Below are positions 1-18,915 of a DNA stretch of 20,175 nucleotides, piece by piece (position 1 is the first letter of the stretch; every line of letters starts with the position of its first letter). The translations under genes and the position numbers were made by a program. The notes below the pieces were generated by a model. The model saw only the letters and a program-made list of their open reading frames with translations, searched no databases and was not told the DNA's origin. This DNA comes from a virus: positions 1-20,175 of IMG/VR virus record IMGVR_UViG_3300037585_000132, one strand, 5' to 3'.

Positions 1-30
1 ACACAGATATTCCGTAACGGAAAAAAATAA
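1..30 (+). CDS. 3' end of an upstream late gene (partial)
   Basis: Frame 1 is open from the window edge and ends TAA at 28-30, giving the tail ...TQIFRNGKK. The stop overlaps the next ATG at 30 in a TAATG arrangement, which is the usual junction in this operon. Only nine residues are visible, so no function can be given. Confidence 0.5.
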   Translation, partial: TQIFRNGKK

Positions 31-266
31 TGTCTGATAACAGTTTTGAACTGATAAACGAATACAAAGAACAAGTTCGTATATTAAAGCAAGAAGTAGC
101 TGAATTACAAGACGCAGGTAAGTCTAAGGATGCAGCTAATAAAAGATGTTTACAAAAATTAGAACATGCTAATAAAGATTTAGAAGACGCACAAGAAAAA
201 ATAAAAAAAATGGAGGAAAAAAATGATCAGAAAGATAAAGGAAAAGATCAAGAATCTTTGGGATAA
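30..266 (+). CDS. Small charged coiled-coil protein, unknown function
   Basis: A 78-residue protein, almost entirely helical and charged (Lys/Glu/Gln), with heptad-like spacing from about residue 10 to 65 and a Lys/Asp-rich tail. There is no signal peptide, membrane segment or cysteine pair. It is coupled to the upstream gene by a TAATG overlap and its 3' end contains the ribosome site and start of the next small gene at 223. A short coiled-coil protein in a late operon could be a scaffold or assembly helper, but nothing in the sequence establishes this and I do not recognise the family. Confidence 0.7.
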   Translation: MSDNSFELINEYKEQVRILKQEVAELQDAGKSKDAANKRCLQKLEHANKDLEDAQEKIKKMEEKNDQKDKGKDQESLG

Positions 267-303
267 ATTTGTTGTCTGGCTATTTTCAGGTTACGATAAG
301 TGA
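223..303 (+). CDS. 26-residue amphipathic membrane-associated microprotein
   Basis: An ATG at 223 follows a strong ribosome site (GGAGG at 212-216, six bases before the start) lying inside the end of the preceding gene. The product begins MIRKIKEKIKNLWDK, a strongly basic amphipathic helix, followed by a short hydrophobic stretch VVWLF and a polar end. The stop TGA at 301-303 overlaps the GTG start of the next gene at 300. The ribosome site and both overlaps argue for translation despite the length. The shape resembles small membrane-active phage peptides, which is only a structural analogy. Function unknown. Confidence 0.55.
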   Translation: MIRKIKEKIKNLWDKFVVWLFSGYDK

Positions 304-524
304 AATTTGGGCTAGTTCTTTTTTTATGCTCATTTGTAGCAGAAGAATGTTTGCCGCCCCATTATTTTCATGCACAATTTCAAGATGAATATACTTGTTT
401 AATGATGGGTTATGAACAATCTATTTTAAAAATGGAAGAAATAGGTAGAGAAGAAATTAATAAACATAGTATGTATATAAAATTTGTATGTGCTGAAATA
501 AAACCATCAGAAGAAGATACTTAA
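300..524 (+). CDS. Small exported cysteine-containing protein
   Basis: A 74-residue product from a GTG start that overlaps the preceding TGA (GTGA). Residues 4-14 are hydrophobic (GLVLFLCSFVA), consistent with a short signal sequence or anchor; C10 and C17 lie near it but neither sits in a good lipobox. The mature part has C33 and C64 flanking a charged helix. It resembles the product of 1712-1927: an aromatic/acidic run before a Cys-Leu, a Tyr five or six residues later, and a basic/hydrophobic strand ending in Cys. A disulfide in the periplasm is plausible. No family recognised. Confidence 0.65.
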   Translation: MKFGLVLFLCSFVAEECLPPHYFHAQFQDEYTCLMMGYEQSILKMEEIGREEINKHSMYIKFVCAEIKPSEEDT

Positions 525-526
525 TT

Positions 527-1201
527 ATGAGAACCCTCGCAATATTATTTATGTTATTATTTACATCCTTTGCACATGCAGGAAGCACCCAATCAAATGT
601 ATCTGGGTCTAACACTGCTATTGAAGGGGGATATACATCAAGTGCTACAACAACTTATCAGTCTGGTTCTAGCTCAAATAGTACTACGAGTAACACAACA
701 AATTCTAATGTAAGGTCATCACCTCCATCAGCATCAGCACCATCTTATAATTCTATGACACAAGATGTTTGTAGTACAGGTGCTTCAATGGGAATACAGA
801 CTTTTGGAATAGGTGTTAGTGGTGGAAAACATTTTATAGATAAAAATTGTGAAAGATTAAAACTAGCTAGAATACTTAATGACTTTGGTATGAAGGTAGC
901 AGCAGTAGCAATACTATGTCAAGATGAAAGAGTATTTGAATCTATGATTCAAGCAGGTACTCCCTGTCCTATTGATGGTAAAATTGGTAAAGAAGCTGAA
1001 GCTCTTTGGTCTAAATATGATAATGAAAGACCAGACTATGACATATATGTTAAACGTATGAAACAAAGAGAAAAGAAGGAAAAAGAATTAGAAAAAATTA
1101 GACTTAAAGAAGAAGCTAAAATGACTAAAGAATTTGATAAGGTAGATAAAGAAATTAAAATAGAAAAACTAAAACCTATAGACTGGGAATCACCTAAATA
1201 A
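527..1201 (+). CDS. Exported Ser/Thr/Asn-rich protein with a basic helical C-terminus
   Basis: A 224-residue protein with a clear Sec signal peptide: MRTLAILFMLLFTSFAHA with a likely cut after AHA at residue 18. Residues 19-75 are a low-complexity Ser/Thr/Asn/Gly linker. Residues about 80-170 form a globular part with four cysteines (in VCSTG, NCERL, LCQDE, PCPID), which suits an oxidised periplasmic fold. Residues about 175-224 are a Lys/Glu-rich helix. It starts two bases after the preceding stop and its TAA overlaps the next ATG at 1201. A signal peptide on a phage late gene implies action at the host envelope (lysis, exclusion or assembly), but the family is unknown to me. Confidence 0.75.
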   Translation: MRTLAILFMLLFTSFAHAGSTQSNVSGSNTAIEGGYTSSATTTYQSGSSSNSTTSNTTNSNVRSSPPSASAPSYNSMTQDVCSTGASMGIQTFGIGVSGGKHFIDKNCERLKLARILNDFGMKVAAVAILCQDERVFESMIQAGTPCPIDGKIGKEAEALWSKYDNERPDYDIYVKRMKQREKKEKELEKIRLKEEAKMTKEFDKVDKEIKIEKLKPIDWESPK

Positions 1202-1329
1202 TGCCAAAACCAGTAAGAAAATGGGTAGTAAAATTAAGAATGTGGTGGGCAGATATTAGAGGACATCATGGTAAACGTTGGGACTATGAACCTGGTGATT
1301 ACTATATGGGTCGTAAAAGAAGAAAATGA
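1201..1329 (+). CDS. Small basic Trp-rich protein (42 residues)
   Basis: The ATG at 1201 shares a base with the preceding TAA, and the TGA at 1327-1329 overlaps the next ATG at 1326. The product starts MPKPVRKWVVKLRMWWADIR and ends GRKRRK; it is strongly basic with four tryptophans and no membrane-spanning length. It exactly fills the space between two well-supported genes, and both junctions are overlap-coupled, so I accept it as a gene. Function unknown. Confidence 0.65.
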   Translation: MPKPVRKWVVKLRMWWADIRGHHGKRWDYEPGDYYMGRKRRK

Positions 1330-1712
1330 AAATAAGCGAGAATACGGCAGTATCTATGCCGATGAAAAATTTAATTAGTATTATTGCTGCTGTTGCAGTA
1401 GGAGTATGGGCATACTTTGGTATAGTAGAAACTTTAAATAAACATAGTACAACTCTAGAGTTAATGCAAAAAGATTTAGAAGCTAACTCAGAATTTAGAA
1501 TTAAATACCCACGTGGAGAACTTGGTCAGTCATCTGGGGAGGCGGAGCTCTTTATGTTGGTGGAACATATGGCAGGGTTAATAGAGTCTATGGATGAAGA
1601 GTTAAAAGGTATGAGAAATAATAAAATTAATATAGATTTTTTAAAAGAACAAGTATCAAAATTACAAGCTGATGTAGAAAAAATAATTAGAAATGGCAAT
1701 GGAGAACACTAA
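1326..1712 (+). CDS. Single-pass membrane protein with a coiled-coil domain
   Basis: A 128-residue product. Residues about 15-35 (LISIIAAVAVGVWAYFGIV) form one membrane helix near the N-terminus. The rest is polar with heptad-like helices at about 38-60 and 95-122. This N-in/C-out layout with a coiled coil outside the membrane is shared with the product of 3627-3908. It resembles the arrangement of inner-membrane spanins or small phage membrane anchors, but no lipoprotein partner with a convincing lipobox is seen beside it. Coupled by ATGA to the gene before and TAATG to the one after. Holin/spanin assignment is speculative. Confidence 0.7.
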   Translation: MKISENTAVSMPMKNLISIIAAVAVGVWAYFGIVETLNKHSTTLELMQKDLEANSEFRIKYPRGELGQSSGEAELFMLVEHMAGLIESMDEELKGMRNNKINIDFLKEQVSKLQADVEKIIRNGNGEH

Positions 1713-1927
1713 TGATAGAAATGGTATTTGCTTTATTACTCTTACAAGATCATAAAATTATAGAACATCGTTATCATGAGTCATTATCAAAATGTCTTAA
1801 AGCTAAACGTTATGCTATGAAGGACAAAAGTCCTGGTGATAGAGTTGTTTATAAATGCATTCAATCTAAAGCAAACATTGAAGTATATATGGGAGAGAAA
1901 AAAATACTCTCTTTAATATTAGAATGA
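1712..1927 (+). CDS. Small exported cysteine-pair protein, possible paralogue of the 300-524 product
   Basis: A 71-residue protein with a short hydrophobic start (MIEMVFALLLL) that may be a signal segment or anchor, followed by C28 and C49 in SKCLKAKRY and VYKCIQ. The same pattern (aromatic/acidic run, Cys-Leu, Tyr, strand ending in Cys) occurs in the 300-524 product. It starts in a TAATG overlap with the preceding gene and its TGA overlaps the ATG at 1924. Function unknown; a disulfide-stabilised periplasmic mini-protein is the reading I would test. Confidence 0.65.
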   Translation: MIEMVFALLLLQDHKIIEHRYHESLSKCLKAKRYAMKDKSPGDRVVYKCIQSKANIEVYMGEKKILSLILE

Positions 1928-2037
1928 TTTGGTTAATTATATTTATAGGAGTTATGGCTTATGCGGTTTATCGTATTAACACTTTTGCTGATGACGTTAA
2001 TCCATACAACTTCAGCAGAAGAAATAACGACAGGTAA
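1924..2037 (+). CDS. Possible 37-residue single-pass membrane protein
   Basis: The ATG at 1924 overlaps the previous TGA (ATGA). Residues 2-16 are hydrophobic (IWLIIFIGVMAYAVY), then the product turns polar and ends YNFSRRNNDR. Its last 77 bases overlap the signal peptide of the exported protein starting at 1961 in another frame, and it has no strong ribosome site of its own. The GGAG at 1948-1951 probably serves 1961. The membrane-type composition and coupled start favour a real gene; the long overlap counts against it. Confidence 0.4.
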   Translation: MIWLIIFIGVMAYAVYRINTFADDVNPYNFSRRNNDR

Positions 2038-3634
2038 TTTATTACCTAATGGTACTGGTTCTGCATCTAATTTGCAATCAGTAGATAATACAATACCAAA
2101 TGTACAATCAAGTTGTTCATCATTTACTTCAGTTAATACTACATGTACAAATTCAAATTGGAACTATCAAGAAGTAGAAATAGGTAGCACATCATCAGGT
2201 ACAGGTACTTTAAACTACACAGGTAATTTAGTAGATGTAACAACAGGTAATGAAACTACTACCCAAGTAATGTTAGATAATGGTATTACTTTAGATTCTA
2301 CAACTGTTGTACAAAATTGTGAATGGTCTGGATCATCACATCAATGTGGTCAAGCACAATCAGGTCGAGATACATTTAAAACAACAGTTAAGATATTAGA
2401 TTCTGATGGTAATGTGTTGTCTGAAATAGACCAAATAAGAAATACAGATTCAGGTTATTATAGTAATGCAGACAAGTATACAGATCAAGTTATATATAAT
2501 GGCACAGGATCAAATCAATTTGATTGGACTTGGACAGGAATAGATGGTGATTCTACTCCAGTTGATTTAGGTGGACCTAATTTGTTAGGTGCTAAACTAA
2601 CTATGACTTATGATAACACGGTTATAGCAAATGAAATTGTTGAAGAAATAAGTGAAATATTTGAAGAATTACAAGAAGAAATATTTGAAGAATTTACATT
2701 TGAATATATTGAAGAAATGTTTGAAGAGTTTACACTTATAGCACCACCTATGGAAGAAGTTATGGAAGAAGAATTTGAAGAGATGACATTTGAACCCATG
2801 CTTACTTTAATAGAAGAAATGCCAATGGAAGAAGAATTTTTTGAAGAAGAAATGCTTATAGAAGAAATGCCAATGGAAGAAGAAATAACTACATCTTTTT
2901 TTACTATGATGCCACCACCACAAGAAGAGGAAATATATGAGGAAACGGAAGAGATCATCGCAAGTTTCTTACCTATGGTTCTTAAAGAAGAGGAGACATT
3001 TACAGAAGAAGAAGAATTTGTCGAAGAAGAACCAGTAATGGAAGAAGAAATTGTACAAGAAAAACCATCAAGATTTACAGCTGCACCTAAAGAAAAAGAA
3101 AAAGAAGAAGTAATAGAGGAAGAAACTGTAGAAGAGGAGCCAAAACAAATAGCACAAAAACCAAATGAAGAAAAAGAAACAATTAAAGAAGAAAAACCCA
3201 CTAGCGAAACTTCTAAAAAGTCCGCAGTTCCAACAAAAAAAATTACCAAACAAAAGAAAGTACAGTCGAAAGGAAATAAAACAACAAATGTTAAGTCACA
3301 GTCAAGACTTGTAAATTTAGAAAAAGTTATGGATAAAGTAGATAAAGATATAAAAGATATATCAAAAAATTTACAGATAAAAAATATAATTAAGATAGGT
3401 GCTATGACTAATGATCAAGCATCTCTTGATATTTATGATGTACCCTTTTATAAAAGTGAAGATATTTATTTAGATCAATTACAAATACAAGATTTAAGAC
3501 AAGTATATGCTGATACTACTCTAAATAATTATATAGCAAATGATCCTGTATTTATTATGCAGGATAAATTAAATAAAATAAATATAGAAAAACAAAGAAT
3601 ATTAATAGAACTGGAGCAATTAAAAAATGGATAA
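1961..3634 (+). CDS. Exported protein with a beta-rich N-domain, long Glu-rich tract and Lys-rich/coiled C-terminus
   Basis: A 557-residue product with a Sec signal peptide (MRFIVLTLLLMTLIHTTSA, cut near residue 19) and GGAG nine bases before the start. Residues about 20-225 are Thr/Ser/Gly/Asn-rich, look all-beta, and hold four cysteines (52, 62, 120, 129); a jelly-roll or lectin-like domain is possible but unproven. Residues about 226-415 are extremely acidic, full of EE/EEE and Met/Phe/Pro, with a 27-base direct repeat at 2810-2836 and 2858-2884. A Lys-rich patch follows at about 419-445, then a helical end with likely coiled coil. It overlaps the next gene by eight bases. Secretion plus strong charge segregation suggests an extended periplasmic or surface protein. 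I do not recognise the family. Confidence 0.8.
   Translation: MRFIVLTLLLMTLIHTTSAEEITTGNLLPNGTGSASNLQSVDNTIPNVQSSCSSFTSVNTTCTNSNWNYQEVEIGSTSSGTGTLNYTGNLVDVTTGNETTTQVMLDNGITLDSTTVVQNCEWSGSSHQCGQAQSGRDTFKTTVKILDSDGNVLSEIDQIRNTDSGYYSNADKYTDQVIYNGTGSNQFDWTWTGIDGDSTPVDLGGPNLLGAKLTMTYDNTVIANEIVEEISEIFEELQEEIFEEFTFEYIEEMFEEFTLIAPPMEEVMEEEFEEMTFEPMLTLIEEMPMEEEFFEEEMLIEEMPMEEEITTSFFTMMPPPQEEEIYEETEEIIASFLPMVLKEEETFTEEEEFVEEEPVMEEEIVQEKPSRFTAAPKEKEKEEVIEEETVEEEPKQIAQKPNEEKETIKEEKPTSETSKKSAVPTKKITKQKKVQSKGNKTTNVKSQSRLVNLEKVMDKVDKDIKDISKNLQIKNIIKIGAMTNDQASLDIYDVPFYKSEDIYLDQLQIQDLRQVYADTTLNNYIANDPVFIMQDKLNKINIEKQRILIELEQLKNG
2810..2884 (+). repeat. 27-base direct repeat pair inside the Glu-rich tract
   Basis: Identical 27-base copies at 2810-2836 and 2858-2884 are offset by 48 bases (16 codons), so the frame is kept. 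Each encodes IEEMPMEEE. The surrounding tract (about 2630-3200) has many degenerate gaagaa-rich units, consistent with growth by slippage or unequal recombination. Confidence 0.8.
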
Positions 3635-3908
3635 AATAAAAAATCAATTAGCTGGTGTTGCAGCTTTACTAGGTGTCATTGCCGCAATAGGTGGTGGATT
3701 TGTTAAGTATGGTGAAGTTATGACTAAACTTGACTCAATAGAAACTGTTGATTACTCAGCACAGATAGCTGTATTAGAAGAAAAAGTTGATGCTTTAAGT
3801 GGAGATCATGGTCATACAAAAATGTTAGTTAATGAAAAGGAAATACAATTACTTAAAGTGCAGATAGAAGAAATTAAAGTTAAATCTTCTAACCCTCTAG
3901 CAAATTAA
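3627..3908 (+). CDS. Small single-pass membrane protein with coiled coil, holin/spanin-like layout
   Basis: A 93-residue product. Residues about 8-28 form a Gly/Ala-rich membrane helix (LAGVAALLGVIAAIGGGFV), followed by two short coiled-coil stretches at about 44-58 and 68-86. It overlaps the preceding secreted-protein gene by eight bases and ends in a TAATG junction with the next gene. The layout matches the 1326-1712 product, suggesting related anchors serving the two exported proteins. A holin-type role is possible because an endolysin lies downstream in the same operon, but nothing proves this. Confidence 0.7.
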   Translation: MDKIKNQLAGVAALLGVIAAIGGGFVKYGEVMTKLDSIETVDYSAQIAVLEEKVDALSGDHGHTKMLVNEKEIQLLKVQIEEIKVKSSNPLAN

Positions 3909-4561
3909 TGTATTTAAATGCTAATGTACCTCCTATAGAATGCTTTGTAAGGGGTAATTATTTAAGAGATCAAAAAGATTCTCACGATAAATACTTTGAG
4001 TGTGTAATATTTGGTTTTAGTTCTATACCTAAACAAGTTCCTTTGTTTCATTACATGATGACAGATGGTGGTATATGGTGGAGAGCACCTATATCTGCAT
4101 TTTGTAAAAAACCAGATGTAAAAGAATTACCTTTAAATGAATTAATGTTATGGGATTCATTTAGTTATAATGTAAGTGTTACAAAATTTTATCAATTAGA
4201 TGGTTGTAAAATGATATACACATCTAGAAGAAAAAAACAAGTTGAAGGTAAATACTTATTTACTATTGACTGGTGTGCTGGTGATTATAATGAATTAGAT
4301 TTTGGTTATGCAGAAAAACCAGATCAACATAAATGTGGACATGTAATAGAATTAGATGATGGTAACTATGCAATTCAACCCAACAATAGACTAAGGATAT
4401 TTGATCCTTCTATGGCAGCTGACCCCAGCAAACCTCTTATCCATAGATTAGTTAATACTAGAATCTGGTCCGTAGAAGATACTTCTAAATGGATTACAGA
4501 TGAAGTACAGGAAGGAAGCTATGATTATGAATATAAGGAGATAAAAGATGGCAGTAAATAA
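3908..4561 (+). CDS. Conserved-looking late protein of unknown function (217 residues)
   Basis: A 217-residue soluble protein with no signal peptide or membrane segment, rich in Tyr, Trp and Asp. Stretches such as ECFVRGNYLRD, GGIWWRAPISAFC, LPLNELMLWDSFSY and FTIDWCAGDYNELDFGY look like a compact, well-conserved fold. It starts in a TAATG overlap with the membrane-protein gene and ends inside the next small basic gene (overlap 4548-4561). It sits between envelope-directed proteins and a cluster of basic proteins in the late operon, so a virion or assembly role is plausible. I cannot name the family. Confidence 0.75.
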   Translation: MYLNANVPPIECFVRGNYLRDQKDSHDKYFECVIFGFSSIPKQVPLFHYMMTDGGIWWRAPISAFCKKPDVKELPLNELMLWDSFSYNVSVTKFYQLDGCKMIYTSRRKKQVEGKYLFTIDWCAGDYNELDFGYAEKPDQHKCGHVIELDDGNYAIQPNNRLRIFDPSMAADPSKPLIHRLVNTRIWSVEDTSKWITDEVQEGSYDYEYKEIKDGSK

Positions 4562-5182: not shown

Positions 5183-5433
5183 TGGCAAAGACAGCAGCAT
5201 GGCAACGTAAAGAAGGTAAAAACCCCTCTGGTGGTTTAAATGCTAAAGGTCGTGCATCATACAATCGTGCAACTGGAGGCAATTTAAAAGCACCTAGTAA
5301 AAAAGTTGGTAATCCTAGACGAGCTAGTTTTTGTGCTCGTATGAGAGGAATGAAAAAAAAATTAACTTCTAAAAAAACTGCTAATGACCCTAATTCAAGA
5401 ATTAATAAAGCACTTCGTGCTTGGAATTGTTAG
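5182..5433 (+). CDS. Basic conserved phage protein (DUF6321-like)
   Basis: An 83-residue product with the conserved pattern AWQRKEGKNPSGGLNAKGR, GGNLKAP, RRASFCARMRGM and a final SRINKALRAWNC. I recall this signature as Pfam DUF6321, widespread in marine phages and of unknown function; not checked by search. Two cysteines (in SFCARM and the last residue) are part of the pattern. It is coupled by TAATG to the gene before and its 3' end overlaps the start region of the endolysin gene. It is the last member of the basic-protein run and likely co-expressed with virion genes. Confidence 0.8.
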   Translation: MAKTAAWQRKEGKNPSGGLNAKGRASYNRATGGNLKAPSKKVGNPRRASFCARMRGMKKKLTSKKTANDPNSRINKALRAWNC

Positions 5434-5986
5434 CTTAATATTATTACACGGAACTATGGATCAATATGGAAAACATAGAGATTTCTTACAAAAAATAAGA
5501 AATGTTAAATCTGAATATAGCCAAGAATCATTTGAGGCTAATGTTCCTGATGATTTTATTTTAACAATAGCTACAGCTGAAACAGGCAACTTTAATTTTA
5601 AAAATGCTGATACTGCTAAAAGAGCAAATAATTTTTTTGGAATGCAGGCTATTGGTGATGAATCATTTATATTATCCCAAGACCCAAATAAAAAAGCTAA
5701 AGTTAGAACATTTAATAGTGCAGAAGATAGTATAAAAGGATTTTTAGAACTTATGAAAACTGGATCTAGTTATCAAGGTATAAGAGAATCAATAGCAAAG
5801 GGAGATAACACAATAAATTATTTTGATTCTTTAGGTGAATACGCAGAAAAAAAAAATTATCCAGAATTTTTAAAAGATATATATATTACTAGAATTTTAG
5901 ATTTTATGAATCCAAAAGATGATACAGGTAAACTAATGTTACCAAATAAAAAACCTATGAAATCTCAAATGAATACCCTAAAATAA
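5384..5986 (+). CDS. Glucosaminidase/muramidase-like endolysin with an N-terminal membrane segment
   Basis: Up to 200 residues. Residues about 58-180 resemble the Bax/FlgJ-type glucosaminidase (lysozyme-like) fold: FILTIATAETGNF with a candidate catalytic E66, then NNFFGMQ (82-88), VRTFNSAEDSIKGFLELM, and YAEKKNYPEFLKDIY near the end. It would cleave peptidoglycan glycan strands during lysis. Residues 11-22 (FVLGIVSLILLH) are hydrophobic, giving a possible signal anchor. The start is uncertain: ATG 5384 and GTG 5417 overlap the preceding gene, while ATG 5456 would remove the hydrophobic segment; none has a strong ribosome site. Last gene before the rightward terminator. Fold assignment is by motif only. 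Confidence 0.75.
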   Translation: MTLIQELIKHFVLGIVSLILLHGTMDQYGKHRDFLQKIRNVKSEYSQESFEANVPDDFILTIATAETGNFNFKNADTAKRANNFFGMQAIGDESFILSQDPNKKAKVRTFNSAEDSIKGFLELMKTGSSYQGIRESIAKGDNTINYFDSLGEYAEKKNYPEFLKDIYITRILDFMNPKDDTGKLMLPNKKPMKSQMNTLK

Positions 5987-6087: not shown

Positions 6088-6669
6088 TTATGTCTTCACA
6101 AATGATGGAAGACCTAACATTGGTCTTTTATCAAACCTATTGCTTTCAGCAAAAGGACCATTTACATGATTATAATGAAGAAATACTTGTCCACAAATAT
6201 TACCTTTAAACGGTTCTCTCCAATGTTCTAATTCGCAACCACTATATACTAACATATCTCCCACATCAAGCATTACTTCTGTGCCTTCTATAAATATAGA
6301 CCACGGGTCACCACCTAAATGTATGGTTGTAGATATCTCACAACTAGGTCTATCTTTGTGTTTATGTAGTATATCACCGTGTTTGTATATTCGAGCATAT
6401 GAGTATGTAGGTATTAATTCAAGACCTGTTTCTTTTTGCATTTTAGGTAATACTTTCATTAACAAAGTTTCCATTGCAGGATCAGCATAAATTGAATAAG
6501 TGTTTGGAACTTGCTGGTCAGACCAAGTACCTAGTAAACTCGTGTCATACGTAATATTATTTTGATACATAAATTGAACTGCATCACGTTTAAGTAAAAA
6601 ATAATTAAATATAAAATTAGCTAATTCATAACTAATTGCATTTTTTATTACTTGGTATTTATTAAACAT
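6088..6669 (-). CDS. 2-oxoglutarate/Fe(II)-dependent oxygenase, prolyl-4-hydroxylase type
   Basis: A 193-residue cupin-type dioxygenase. The iron triad is visible as H104-x-D106 (in LHKHKDRPSCE) and H149 (CELEHWREPFKG); R151 or K155 could bind 2-oxoglutarate. The strand TTIHLGGDPWSIFI and GDMLVYSGCELEHW are typical of a phage/cyanophage branch of this superfamily in which EHWREPF and QVFLHY are conserved. Such enzymes hydroxylate an unactivated carbon using O2 and 2-oxoglutarate; the substrate cannot be told from sequence. It is the last gene of the leftward operon, sharing one base with the upstream oxygenase (TAATG), and lies before the minus-strand terminator. Confidence 0.85.
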   Translation of the reverse strand: MFNKYQVIKNAISYELANFIFNYFLLKRDAVQFMYQNNITYDTSLLGTWSDQQVPNTYSIYADPAMETLLMKVLPKMQKETGLELIPTYSYARIYKHGDILHKHKDRPSCEISTTIHLGGDPWSIFIEGTEVMLDVGDMLVYSGCELEHWREPFKGNICGQVFLHYNHVNGPFAESNRFDKRPMLGLPSFVKT

Positions 6670-14267: not shown

Positions 14268-14479
14268 ATTCTAGTCTCTCCATTAATTACCTTAACATCT
14301 AAACCATCACATTGTGCAAAGTATTTCCACTCTGAAAAAAACTCATGGTCATTAGCTAGATATAATGTAGTTGGTTCTATTACACATTGATCTTTTAATG
14401 AAGTGTACTCTAAAAAAGCAGAGTATTGCTCATCAGAATATTCATCCATTGTTTCCAATGCTTCTATTTCTTTGGTCAT
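14261..14479 (-). CDS. Small acidic protein (72 residues), unknown
   Basis: The product starts MTKEIEALETMDEYSDEQYS and contains LEYTSLKDQCVIEPTTLYLAND and EFFSEWKYFAQCDGLDVKVING, ending TRIC. It is acidic, with three cysteines and no membrane segment. A strong ribosome site (AAGGAGG) precedes ATG 14479, which overlaps the polymerase stop by four bases. A near-consensus promoter at 14503-14531 inside the polymerase gene would drive it separately. An acidic small protein with its own promoter next to a polymerase could be a regulator or DNA mimic, but nothing more can be shown. Confidence 0.72.
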   Translation of the reverse strand: MTKEIEALETMDEYSDEQYSAFLEYTSLKDQCVIEPTTLYLANDHEFFSEWKYFAQCDGLDVKVINGETRIC

Positions 14480-16512
14480 TTAACCTCCTTCATATTTAAC
14501 CAATCATATCCTATTTTAAGTTCTGTGTCAAGTGGAACATTAAAATTAATATTGTAATACTGTTTAAGTGCAGGTATTACATCTGCTGTGCCCTGTTTAA
14601 ATATTTTACTCATCACATCTTCTTCTCCAGGATAAACATCAGCTACAATAGAATCGTGAACTGTATTTACAAGTAAACTTTTTACCTTTTGTTCTTGCAT
14701 AAGTTTATATATATTTATACAAGCAAGTGGTACAATATCTGCTGTTGCAAAACCTTGCACAGGATAATTTTTTATTTGTGTGCCATATGTAGAGCCACCC
14801 CAAGGTGTTCTTTCTGCGTATGGGAATGAATACTCTCTACCAGTTGGTAATTTAACTCTTTTAAATCTAATAGCTTCACTTTGTAAGTGCTCATGCCAAA
14901 CTTTTATATCTTTATATTTTTCTAAAAATTTAGTATAATATCTTTTCTCATCTTCTGTACCAGTTACACCACCATACAAAGGTTTAAATGTATGTGCCTT
15001 TGCATCTTGCCTTGATACACCTATAATATCTGCAGTGTACTGATGAACATCTATTTTATTTTTTATATCTTCCATACCTTGCTTATCTTGTGCAAGGTAT
15101 ACAGCAGTTCTAAATTCTAATTGTGCAAAGTCTACTTCTAGTATACTACCTTTTTCAAATCTAGATGTTACAACTTTTCTTATAGGAAAAGTTTTACCTC
15201 TTGGTTGGTTTTGAAAATTAGGATCACGACTAGATAATCTACCTGTTGCTGTAACTGCTTGCATAAATTTAGGATGTAAGAAACCTTTTTCATTTGTAAA
15301 ATTTTTTAATCCTTCTACAAAAGTATTTAAATAAGTATCTACTGCATTATGCCTAACAATAGCATCAATAAATTGTTTAAACTCACCCTCTGCTTCTGCA
15401 GATATTTTAGTTAAAGTTATTCTATCTGTTCTAAAACCAGACTCTGCTATATCATATACACTTCTAGGTCTTTGTCTAAATCCTGCTATCTTTGCCATAG
15501 GTGTATATATATAACCATCACCATCACAGTCTACACATTTAGTATAATTTTTATATGGACTACCATCTTTTTTTATTTTTTTAACTACACCTTTACCTTT
15601 ACAAGTTATACATTGTTCTGCTACAGTTCTATGTATTACCTCTGTATTATCTGCAACTAAATTTCTAAATTGTTGTCTTGAATAATTTGGTCTTCGTTTA
15701 TTTTTTCCTGTGCTTTTATCTATACCTACATTAAATATTTTAGCCCATTCTTTTTTATCTTTAGGTTTTACAGAATATATTAACCAAGCTAATTGTTCTG
15801 GACTTGATAAATTAATTTTAGTATCACCCATTTGTTTGTATACTATCTTGTCTATCTTCTGTTTTAAATATGCAAACTCTGCTCTGTATTCTTTTTCTAC
15901 TTTACTTAAATCATCTAGATCTATATTGATTCCATTTCTTTCCATATCTGATAGCACAATTAAAAATTCATTCATCATTTTAGCAGTCATCAATAAACCC
16001 TTATTTTTAGCCATTTTTAGGTCACTCATTTGCGAATCAAATAATCTTCTAGTTATTTCTACATCCATTCTACCATACTCTTCAACTACATCTGCAGGTA
16101 TATTTTGAAATGGTATACCCCTATCTGTATATTCTTTTATACGATTATCTTTTGATCCAATCTTTCTTCTACGGCAAGACATTTCTAATGTTAAACTTTT
16201 TCTTATACCTCTATTTAATATATACTCACCTAACATAGTATCATAAACTTTACCACTATATTTAAATCCAGATTCTAATAACCACATTAAATCAAATTTT
16301 ATGTTATGACCTATAAGTAAAGTTGTTTTATCTAACACGGATTGTATTTTATGATAACATCCTTTATCAATTCTTTCACTATGATTTGTAAAGTAATACC
16401 CATCATTTATACCAACACTAACTAATATATTATCAGGATGAAATGGTGATGGATCATATCCACCTGTACTTGTTACTTGCCAAGATGTTTCTACATCAAC
16501 TGTTGTTATCAT
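14476..16512 (-). CDS. Family A DNA polymerase with 3'-5' exonuclease and zinc-knuckle insertion
   Basis: A 678-residue T7-like replicative polymerase. Proofreading motifs: ExoI TTVDVETS (D6, E8), ExoII GHNIKFDLMW (D74), ExoIII YGRMD (Y146, D150). Polymerase motifs: A, EVDFAQLEFR (D461); B/O-helix, R501, K505, F509, Y513-G514; C, NTVHDS (H619, D620). F509 sits at the E. coli Pol I F762 position; Phe there has been associated with virulent phages. There is no 5'-3' exonuclease domain. Residues 301-333 contain two CxxCxGxG knuckles (CITCKGKG, CVDCDGDG) between the exonuclease and palm, probably one zinc site. Start ATG 16512 overlaps the helicase stop by four bases. Confidence 0.97.
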   Translation of the reverse strand: MITTVDVETSWQVTSTGGYDPSPFHPDNILVSVGINDGYYFTNHSERIDKGCYHKIQSVLDKTTLLIGHNIKFDLMWLLESGFKYSGKVYDTMLGEYILNRGIRKSLTLEMSCRRRKIGSKDNRIKEYTDRGIPFQNIPADVVEEYGRMDVEITRRLFDSQMSDLKMAKNKGLLMTAKMMNEFLIVLSDMERNGINIDLDDLSKVEKEYRAEFAYLKQKIDKIVYKQMGDTKINLSSPEQLAWLIYSVKPKDKKEWAKIFNVGIDKSTGKNKRRPNYSRQQFRNLVADNTEVIHRTVAEQCITCKGKGVVKKIKKDGSPYKNYTKCVDCDGDGYIYTPMAKIAGFRQRPRSVYDIAESGFRTDRITLTKISAEAEGEFKQFIDAIVRHNAVDTYLNTFVEGLKNFTNEKGFLHPKFMQAVTATGRLSSRDPNFQNQPRGKTFPIRKVVTSRFEKGSILEVDFAQLEFRTAVYLAQDKQGMEDIKNKIDVHQYTADIIGVSRQDAKAHTFKPLYGGVTGTEDEKRYYTKFLEKYKDIKVWHEHLQSEAIRFKRVKLPTGREYSFPYAERTPWGGSTYGTQIKNYPVQGFATADIVPLACINIYKLMQEQKVKSLLVNTVHDSIVADVYPGEEDVMSKIFKQGTADVIPALKQYYNINFNVPLDTELKIGYDWLNMKEVK
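14503..14531 (-). promoter_or_regulatory. Sigma-70-type promoter inside the 3' end of the polymerase gene
   Basis: On the minus strand, TTGACA (14531-14526), a 17-base spacer and TATGAT (14508-14503). The predicted start near 14496 lies about 17 bases before ATG 14479. Its spacer shares ACTTAAAAT, in the same place, with the promoter at 14147-14175. Being inside coding sequence, chance occurrence is possible, but spacing and -10 match are close to ideal. Confidence 0.6.
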
Positions 16513-18804: not shown

Positions 18805-18915
18805 TTATTTTGTACTATTAGTTATAGTATATCTTAACACACTTGTTATTGGATTATAATCTGTAGATTTACAAGATGTAAGGCACAAGAATATTAATAC
18901 TATTAGTATTCTCAC
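18805..18915 (-). CDS. 36-residue predicted lipoprotein
   Basis: A GTG start at 18915 overlaps the preceding TGA (18914-18912) in a GTGA junction. The product starts MRILIVLIFLCLTSCKST: a basic residue, a hydrophobic stretch and a textbook lipobox L12-T13-S14-C15, followed by about 21 polar residues ending TITNSTK. It would be exported, lipidated on C15 and anchored in the outer or inner membrane; K16 at +2 favours the outer membrane by the E. coli rule. It lies in the early/replication operon, not next to the endolysin, so an envelope role such as superinfection exclusion is more likely than lysis, but this is speculation. Confidence 0.65.
   Translation of the reverse strand: MRILIVLIFLCLTSCKSTDYNPITSVLRYTITNSTK

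Follow-up and report, generated by a model that had tools for sequence, protein, structure and literature searches.

The window analyzed here, a virus fragment of 20,175 bases (positions 1 to 20,175 of IMG/VR record IMGVR_UViG_3300037585_000132), carries between positions 300 and 3908 a run of genes for small cysteine-containing proteins (CP1 and CP2), exported proteins (SP1 and SP2) and membrane coiled-coil proteins (MC1 and MC2). An earlier sequence-only reading had described this run as two parallel sets in the order CP-SP-MC. Synteny in relatives resolves it into other units: a module, SP1-SP2-MC2 (527, 1961, and 3627), a tight gene pair, MC1-CP2 (1326 and 1712), and CP1 (300), which moves alone. 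The apparent repeat arises because the movable MC1-CP2 pair sits within SP1-SP2-MC2. Judged by its predicted proteins and its gene neighborhood, the module may encode an accessory lysis complex of spanin-like layout, serving to disrupt or remodel the outer envelope late in infection; we advance this reading tentatively, as somewhat short of an even chance.

Gene Units and Synteny

All six open reading frames of the earlier description (at 300, 527, 1326, 1712, 1961, and 3627; Table 1) proved to be real genes, each with many homologues in sequence and profile searches. The DNA polymerase of the window (14476-16512) shares 90% identity with its counterpart in Pelagibacter phage HTVC033P, an HMO-2011-type phage, and the gene order round the module matches HTVC033P gp43-gp48. 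The window represents part of the genome of an HMO-2011-type pelagiphage near HTVC033P and, since that phage is the nearest isolate, the host is probably SAR11. The gene order of the window is not an assembly error, as the same order recurs in independent contigs (e.g., loci L077, L078, L133, and L087).

Approximately 150 viral loci (L numbers) were retrieved with SP2 and MC1 as queries and annotated with per-family profiles, and duplicate contigs were taken out before synteny was counted. Iterated MC2 profiles also picked up MC1, and family assignment followed the better of the two scores. SP1 lies ahead of SP2 in all 92 loci holding both. In 67 loci the family member that comes next after SP2 could be read; it is MC2 in 66 of them and MC1 in the other, HTVC115P. 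In 34 of 43 loci the end of SP2 runs into the MC2 gene, the usual overlap being 8 nucleotides. CP2 follows MC1 in 114 of 118 cases, and the position of the pair varies widely: it is found between SP1 and SP2 (41 loci), after MC2 (9) or before SP1 (5), and is absent from eight loci with long flanks, counts that do not represent natural frequencies as part of the loci were retrieved using MC1 itself. Among SP2-query loci alone, MC1 lies between SP1 and SP2 in 25 and does not in 38, while 13 of the 25 long-flanked MC1-query loci contain neither SP1 nor SP2. Mapped by parsimony onto a 61-row SP2 tree, MC1-CP2 requires 15 changes of position, a rough figure given long branches and horizontal transfer. 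CP1 is located before SP1, after CP2, or far downstream on the opposite strand.

Two further observations concern arrangement. HTVC115P (L160, 4848-7969) shows a third gene order, SP1-SP2-MC1-CP2 followed by a separate MC2-like protein, gp49, that ends in the residues NPL. Also, a conserved small lipoprotein of 51-56 amino acids (lipobox LSAC and similar; typically ~52 residues) is encoded in about ten loci (L016, L024, L026, L029, L032-L035, L042, and L074), its gene occupying one of three places, namely ahead of SP1, between SP1 and SP2, or between MC2 and MC1; compared with the exclusion protein Cor, it gave only a signal-like match (0.034).

Kinship between the paired proteins was assessed by profile-profile comparison. 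MC1 and MC2, represented by separate alignments and not by the iterated MC2 profiles, matched over ~85 columns at 84-86% probability. Controls drawn from these loci, other families of membrane or coiled-coil proteins, reached only 0.1-2.7% and reversed MC2 0.3%, so that kinship is a likelier explanation than generic similarity, and the two are probably distant homologues. No relation was detectable by the same method between CP1 and CP2 (0.6-1.8%) or between SP1 and SP2 (3-6 aligned columns only). The correspondence that had been proposed for three pairs of proteins is probably borne out for the membrane proteins and finds no support for the other two.

These data bear directly on the proposal that a three-gene set had been duplicated to give two parallel envelope systems. 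The probable homology of MC1 and MC2 is what such a duplication would predict, yet the remaining pairs show no detectable relation, MC1-CP2 is often found without SP1 and SP2 and by parsimony requires ~15 changes of position, and a single SP1-SP2-MC2 unit without MC1-CP2 occurs in HTVC033P, HTVC202P, S28-C10, and HTVC023P, relatives with one set in another order. What co-occurs in related phages is SP1-SP2-MC2 on the one hand and MC1-CP2 on the other, each conserved, and not the two sets as such; the first set as listed had, moreover, omitted a conserved small gene, sm. On synteny and profile comparison together we reject the duplicated-set model and accord it next to no probability.

Table 1. 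Genes of the SP1-SP2-MC2 region and its flanks in the window.
Feature	Position	Strand	Description
A	30..266	+	78-amino-acid soluble coiled-coil protein upstream; after holin-like gene in HTVC033P-type genomes
CP1	300..524	+	74-amino-acid Cys-rich small protein, phrog_19893; positionally mobile
SP1	527..1201	+	exported 224-amino-acid protein, phrog_20531; first gene of SP1-SP2-MC2 module
sm	1201..1329	+	conserved 42-amino-acid basic protein, between SP1 and MC1
MC1	1326..1712	+	128-amino-acid coiled-coil protein with a single transmembrane segment, phrog_20984; cassette with CP2
CP2	1712..1927	+	71-amino-acid two-Cys protein, phrog_24646; MC1 partner gene
SP2	1961..3634	+	exported 557-amino-acid protein, predicted jelly-roll domain
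MC2	3627..3908	+	93-amino-acid coiled-coil protein with a single transmembrane segment; 8-nucleotide overlap with SP2 end
phrog_3704 gene	3908..4561	+	putative 'ferredoxin' by label; module neighbor
Glucosaminidase-domain protein (PF01832)	5384..5986	+	peptidoglycan hydrolase; same strand block as module

Properties of the Encoded Proteins

The sequence-only reading was accurate about the character of the SP and MC proteins: by inspection and composition, SP1 and SP2 carry signal peptides and SP1 is rich in Ser and Thr, while MC1 and MC2 each combine one hydrophobic helix with coiled-coil-like sequence.

SP2 begins with a clear type-I signal peptide (by inspection), followed at residues ~20-218 by a predicted jelly roll with strands modeled at a predicted local distance difference test score (pLDDT) of ~80-94 and weaker loops. 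The predicted domain has the galactose-binding-like beta-sandwich fold of the carbohydrate-binding proteins Fbs1 (Z 14), CBM61 (Z 11), and CBM16 (Z 10). It differs from these in sequence, identity being ~10%; Pfam CBM_4_9 scores under its cut-off in a few SP2 members, and the SP2 profile found no match among solved structures. Residues 227-340 form an acidic spacer that lacks Lys and Arg altogether, is 37% Asp/Glu and 40% large hydrophobic residues, and passes into a K/E/P-rich linker, with disorder predicted up to ~449. The C-terminal part (~412-557) is conserved and predicted to be helical. SP2 proteins share the C-terminal ending LKNG, as MC2 proteins share NPL.

A jelly roll is common to phage tail fibers and tailspikes, and together with the location in a late gene block it could mark SP2 as a glycan-binding fiber or decoration protein, with the other proteins assisting in virion assembly. 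We consider this highly improbable, given that both SP1 and SP2 bear Sec signal peptides, which are not generally expected on virion proteins of tailed phages, and that they are co-conserved with a membrane protein.

SP1 likewise has a clear type-I signal peptide (by inspection), beyond which Ser and Thr make up 48% of residues 19-80; a helical domain with four invariant cysteines (82, 108, 131, and 147) and a charged C-terminal helix follow. Its AlphaFold model (mean pLDDT 54) is helical only and was left out of the fold search. When the SP1 profile was compared with solved structures, only a region of GDAP1 matched (E 0.0018), which was taken as a chance match to the charged helix. A lipobox (LSGC, LSSC, ISAC) is present in 10 of 83 SP1 proteins, and in the SP1 signal sequences of L036, L057, L080, L081, L083, L122, and L123 a lipobox of these types is accompanied by a downstream AxA-like site. 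Because both features occur in some signal sequences, SP1 is suggested to alternate between a lipoprotein and a soluble form among relatives.

The hydrophobic helix occupies residues 9-27 in MC1 and 8-26 in MC2. The C-terminal NPL motif is invariant in MC2. Single-transmembrane coiled-coil proteins with this ending are also encoded shortly downstream of SP1 in Mosig, ctXG6705, and HTVC115P, as well as in the roseophages CRP-207 and CRP-810, where the gene lies two positions on and bears the annotation 'lysozyme'; the HTVC115P protein, used as a query, matched no further phage record. As for CP2, its homologue in L175 is longer and has a signal peptide of its own ahead of the stretch that aligns with the hydrophobic N-terminus of the short form. 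This N-terminus is probably a beta strand of the mature domain and, given the alignment, export of the window CP2 is doubtful.

A single transmembrane segment with a conserved extramembrane domain also characterizes T4 T, a class III holin with a periplasmic C-terminal domain that has as its partner the antiholin RI, a helical, Cys-containing regulator in the periplasm. By analogy, MC1 and MC2 could be holin-like proteins that set the timing of lysis, and the helical SP1 with its four invariant cysteines could regulate them from the periplasm as RI does; the lysis-gene neighborhood described below would fit. In contrast to the T4 pair, however, the proteins show no match in sequence to it or to any holin family, separate holin-like candidates already lie beside the endolysin, and no role is left for SP2, the largest and always-present partner, which has no counterpart in T4. 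A function in lysis timing thus appears improbable.

Lysis Neighborhood and Comparison with Spanins

In genomes of the HTVC033P type, the module is preceded by a block encoding, in order, a small transmembrane protein, an amidase (PF01510), a hydrophobic holin-like protein (phrog_2524), A, and CP1. An M15 endolysin (PF08291) follows MC2 in many other loci. Upstream of the module, L166 has a T4-type lysozyme and L167 a holin-like protein directly adjacent, whereas in ctXG6705 a holin-like protein and a lysozyme lie downstream. In L175, genes for an Rz-like inner-membrane spanin (i-spanin) and an outer-membrane spanin (o-spanin) immediately precede MC1-CP2-SP1-SP2-MC2. The link between module and lysis genes is frequent, not universal.

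An accessory lysis complex is consistent with this neighborhood, with the conserved order and SP2/MC2 overlap, with the spread of the module over unrelated backbones, with the Z-scores of the jelly roll (10-14), with the lipoboxes of some SP1 proteins and the small lipoprotein of about ten loci, and with MC2 being the one i-spanin-like protein seen in HTVC033P (first 50 kb). In such a complex, MC2 would sit in the inner membrane and extend its coiled coil into the periplasm, offering a docking site to the helical SP2 C-terminus. The long disordered acidic spacer of SP2 would then cross the periplasm and allow the jelly roll to bind an envelope glycan, while SP1, probably disulfide-bonded, would assist, the outcome being disruption of the envelope. 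MC1-CP2 would represent another lysis-region cassette, one that moves on its own and by chance lies inside the module in the window. The earlier suggestion of an envelope-spanning system for lysis or remodeling may, in this form, be retained as the best account of SP1-SP2-MC2, while the duplicated system it was attached to may not.

The definition of spanins used here is that of a survey which did not settle by what route phages without lipoprotein spanins, many of them marine, pass the outer membrane, and which remarked that the role might fall to proteins of different topology or anchoring (Kongari et al., 2018, PMC6139136). Two-component spanins such as lambda Rz/Rz1 and T4 PseT.3/PseT.2 pair an inner-membrane coiled-coil protein that has an N-terminal transmembrane segment with an exported partner, a layout to which MC2, as a putative inner-membrane protein, and its partners may correspond; further likenesses are overlapping genes, Cys-containing parts predicted to be periplasmic and, for many loci, location within the lysis region. 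The two members of such a spanin join at their C-terminal ends and are needed for outer-membrane disruption in lysis; in the module, the C-termini of MC2 and SP2 are conserved. Two-component spanins differ in that the window has no o-spanin lipoprotein, that the 557-residue SP2 with its jelly roll is far larger than an o-spanin, and that a third protein, SP1, is involved. The unimolecular spanin T1 gp11 offers a parallel to the single long periplasmic link proposed for the SP2 spacer. Such spanins combine an N-terminal lipobox with a C-terminal transmembrane segment, unlike SP2, and in the window SP1 and SP2 have neither. The closest counterparts are gp44-gp46 of HTVC033P (hypothetical proteins, gp45 being annotated 'putative carbohydrate binding'), direct orthologues of MC2, SP2, and SP1 in a genome that differs in having neither the MC1-CP2 cassette nor sm. 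Among the genes annotated in the first 50 kb of HTVC033P, MC2 alone encodes a small protein that joins an N-terminal transmembrane segment to a coiled coil, and a search for lipoproteins gave no credible candidate.

Several findings weigh against a spanin-like role in lysis. A peptidoglycan-hydrolase gene (three marker families) lies within 2.5 kb in only 21 of 39 loci with two flanks, and in HTVC202P and Baldr the module adjoins the terminase. The window module proteins SP1, SP2, and CP2 have no lipobox, so that they lack the anchor by which a true spanin is held in the outer membrane, and matches of MC1 and MC2 to Rz-family profiles are weak (E 0.14-0.28; E 0.0067 for the ctXG6705 protein). 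L175 carries canonical spanins besides the module, which can therefore be no simple spanin replacement; nor is it classed here as a spanin, since the lipoprotein was looked for and not found.

Some of these points would suit surface remodeling or superinfection exclusion, with SP1 and SP2 displayed late in the periplasm or on the outer membrane, the jelly roll binding a surface glycan and blocking receptors or DNA entry, and MC2 serving as anchor. Signal peptides, a sugar-binding fold, and the lipobox of some SP1 proteins are compatible with this, as are the canonical spanins already present in L175 and the fact that in some phages the module borders terminase and not lysis genes. However, PADLOC returned no match to known exclusion or defense families (CP2 aligned weakly and in part with a reverse-transcriptase model, E 0.001, which was taken as chance), and a position in the late lysis/packaging block does not suggest the early expression expected of exclusion genes. 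We regard surface remodeling or exclusion as rather unlikely, and an accessory role in lysis remains our preferred, if tentative, interpretation.

Distribution and Genomic Surroundings

SP1 was found in 10-11 phage records on several unrelated backbones, including T4-like Mosig and a freshwater phage. The complete SP1-SP2-MC2 unit is present in HMO-2011-type, Votkovvirus, HTVC023P, HTVC202P, Baldr, and T4-like Mosig backbones, and probably also in freshwater ctXG6705. MC1 occurs in 45 records, of which 40 are named Pelagibacter phages, and the MC1-CP2 pair is present in most isolated pelagiphage groups. Isolate records of MC1 (45) and SP1 (10) overlap only in HTVC115P, a comparison not used as evidence given the redundancy of the records and the many environmental contigs in which both occur. 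A host origin for SP1 was considered and rejected: of 162 genomes from a single bacterial order, just 2 contained it, and a genome scan of the whole collection gave 12 hits, mostly contigs of metagenome-assembled genomes that look viral. With bacterial hits so few and mostly viral-looking, SP1 is not a host gene family.

Among the module's neighbors, the phrog_3704 gene flanks it in two genome types, after MC2 in one and before SP1 in the other. Farther along the minus strand of the window lie three tandem genes for 2OG-Fe(II) oxygenase-domain proteins (PF13759, PF13640; 6669-8493, also 6088-6669), with a fourth neighbor of similar size without a Pfam match; HTVC033P has two oxygenase-domain genes of this kind too. 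Beside them is a gene for a sulfotransferase-domain protein (PF00685/PF13469; 8474-9289, minus strand). A 36-codon open reading frame at 18805-18915 (minus strand) has a good-looking lipobox (MRILIVLIFLCLTSCKS) and may encode a tiny lipoprotein or be due to chance.

The sequence-only reading knew of no described equivalent, and none was found in the literature searched here, which comprised open-licence papers. The module is present in a phage group that ranks among the most abundant of the ocean (PMC9038755). That unrelated marine phages without recognizable spanins share a three-part, lipoprotein-independent lysis complex spanning the periplasm, in which a glycan-binding exported protein stands in place of the o-spanin lipoprotein, is a doubtful proposition as yet. 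Nevertheless, SP1-SP2-MC2 provides a clonable and testable candidate for how spanin-less marine phages may pass the outer membrane.

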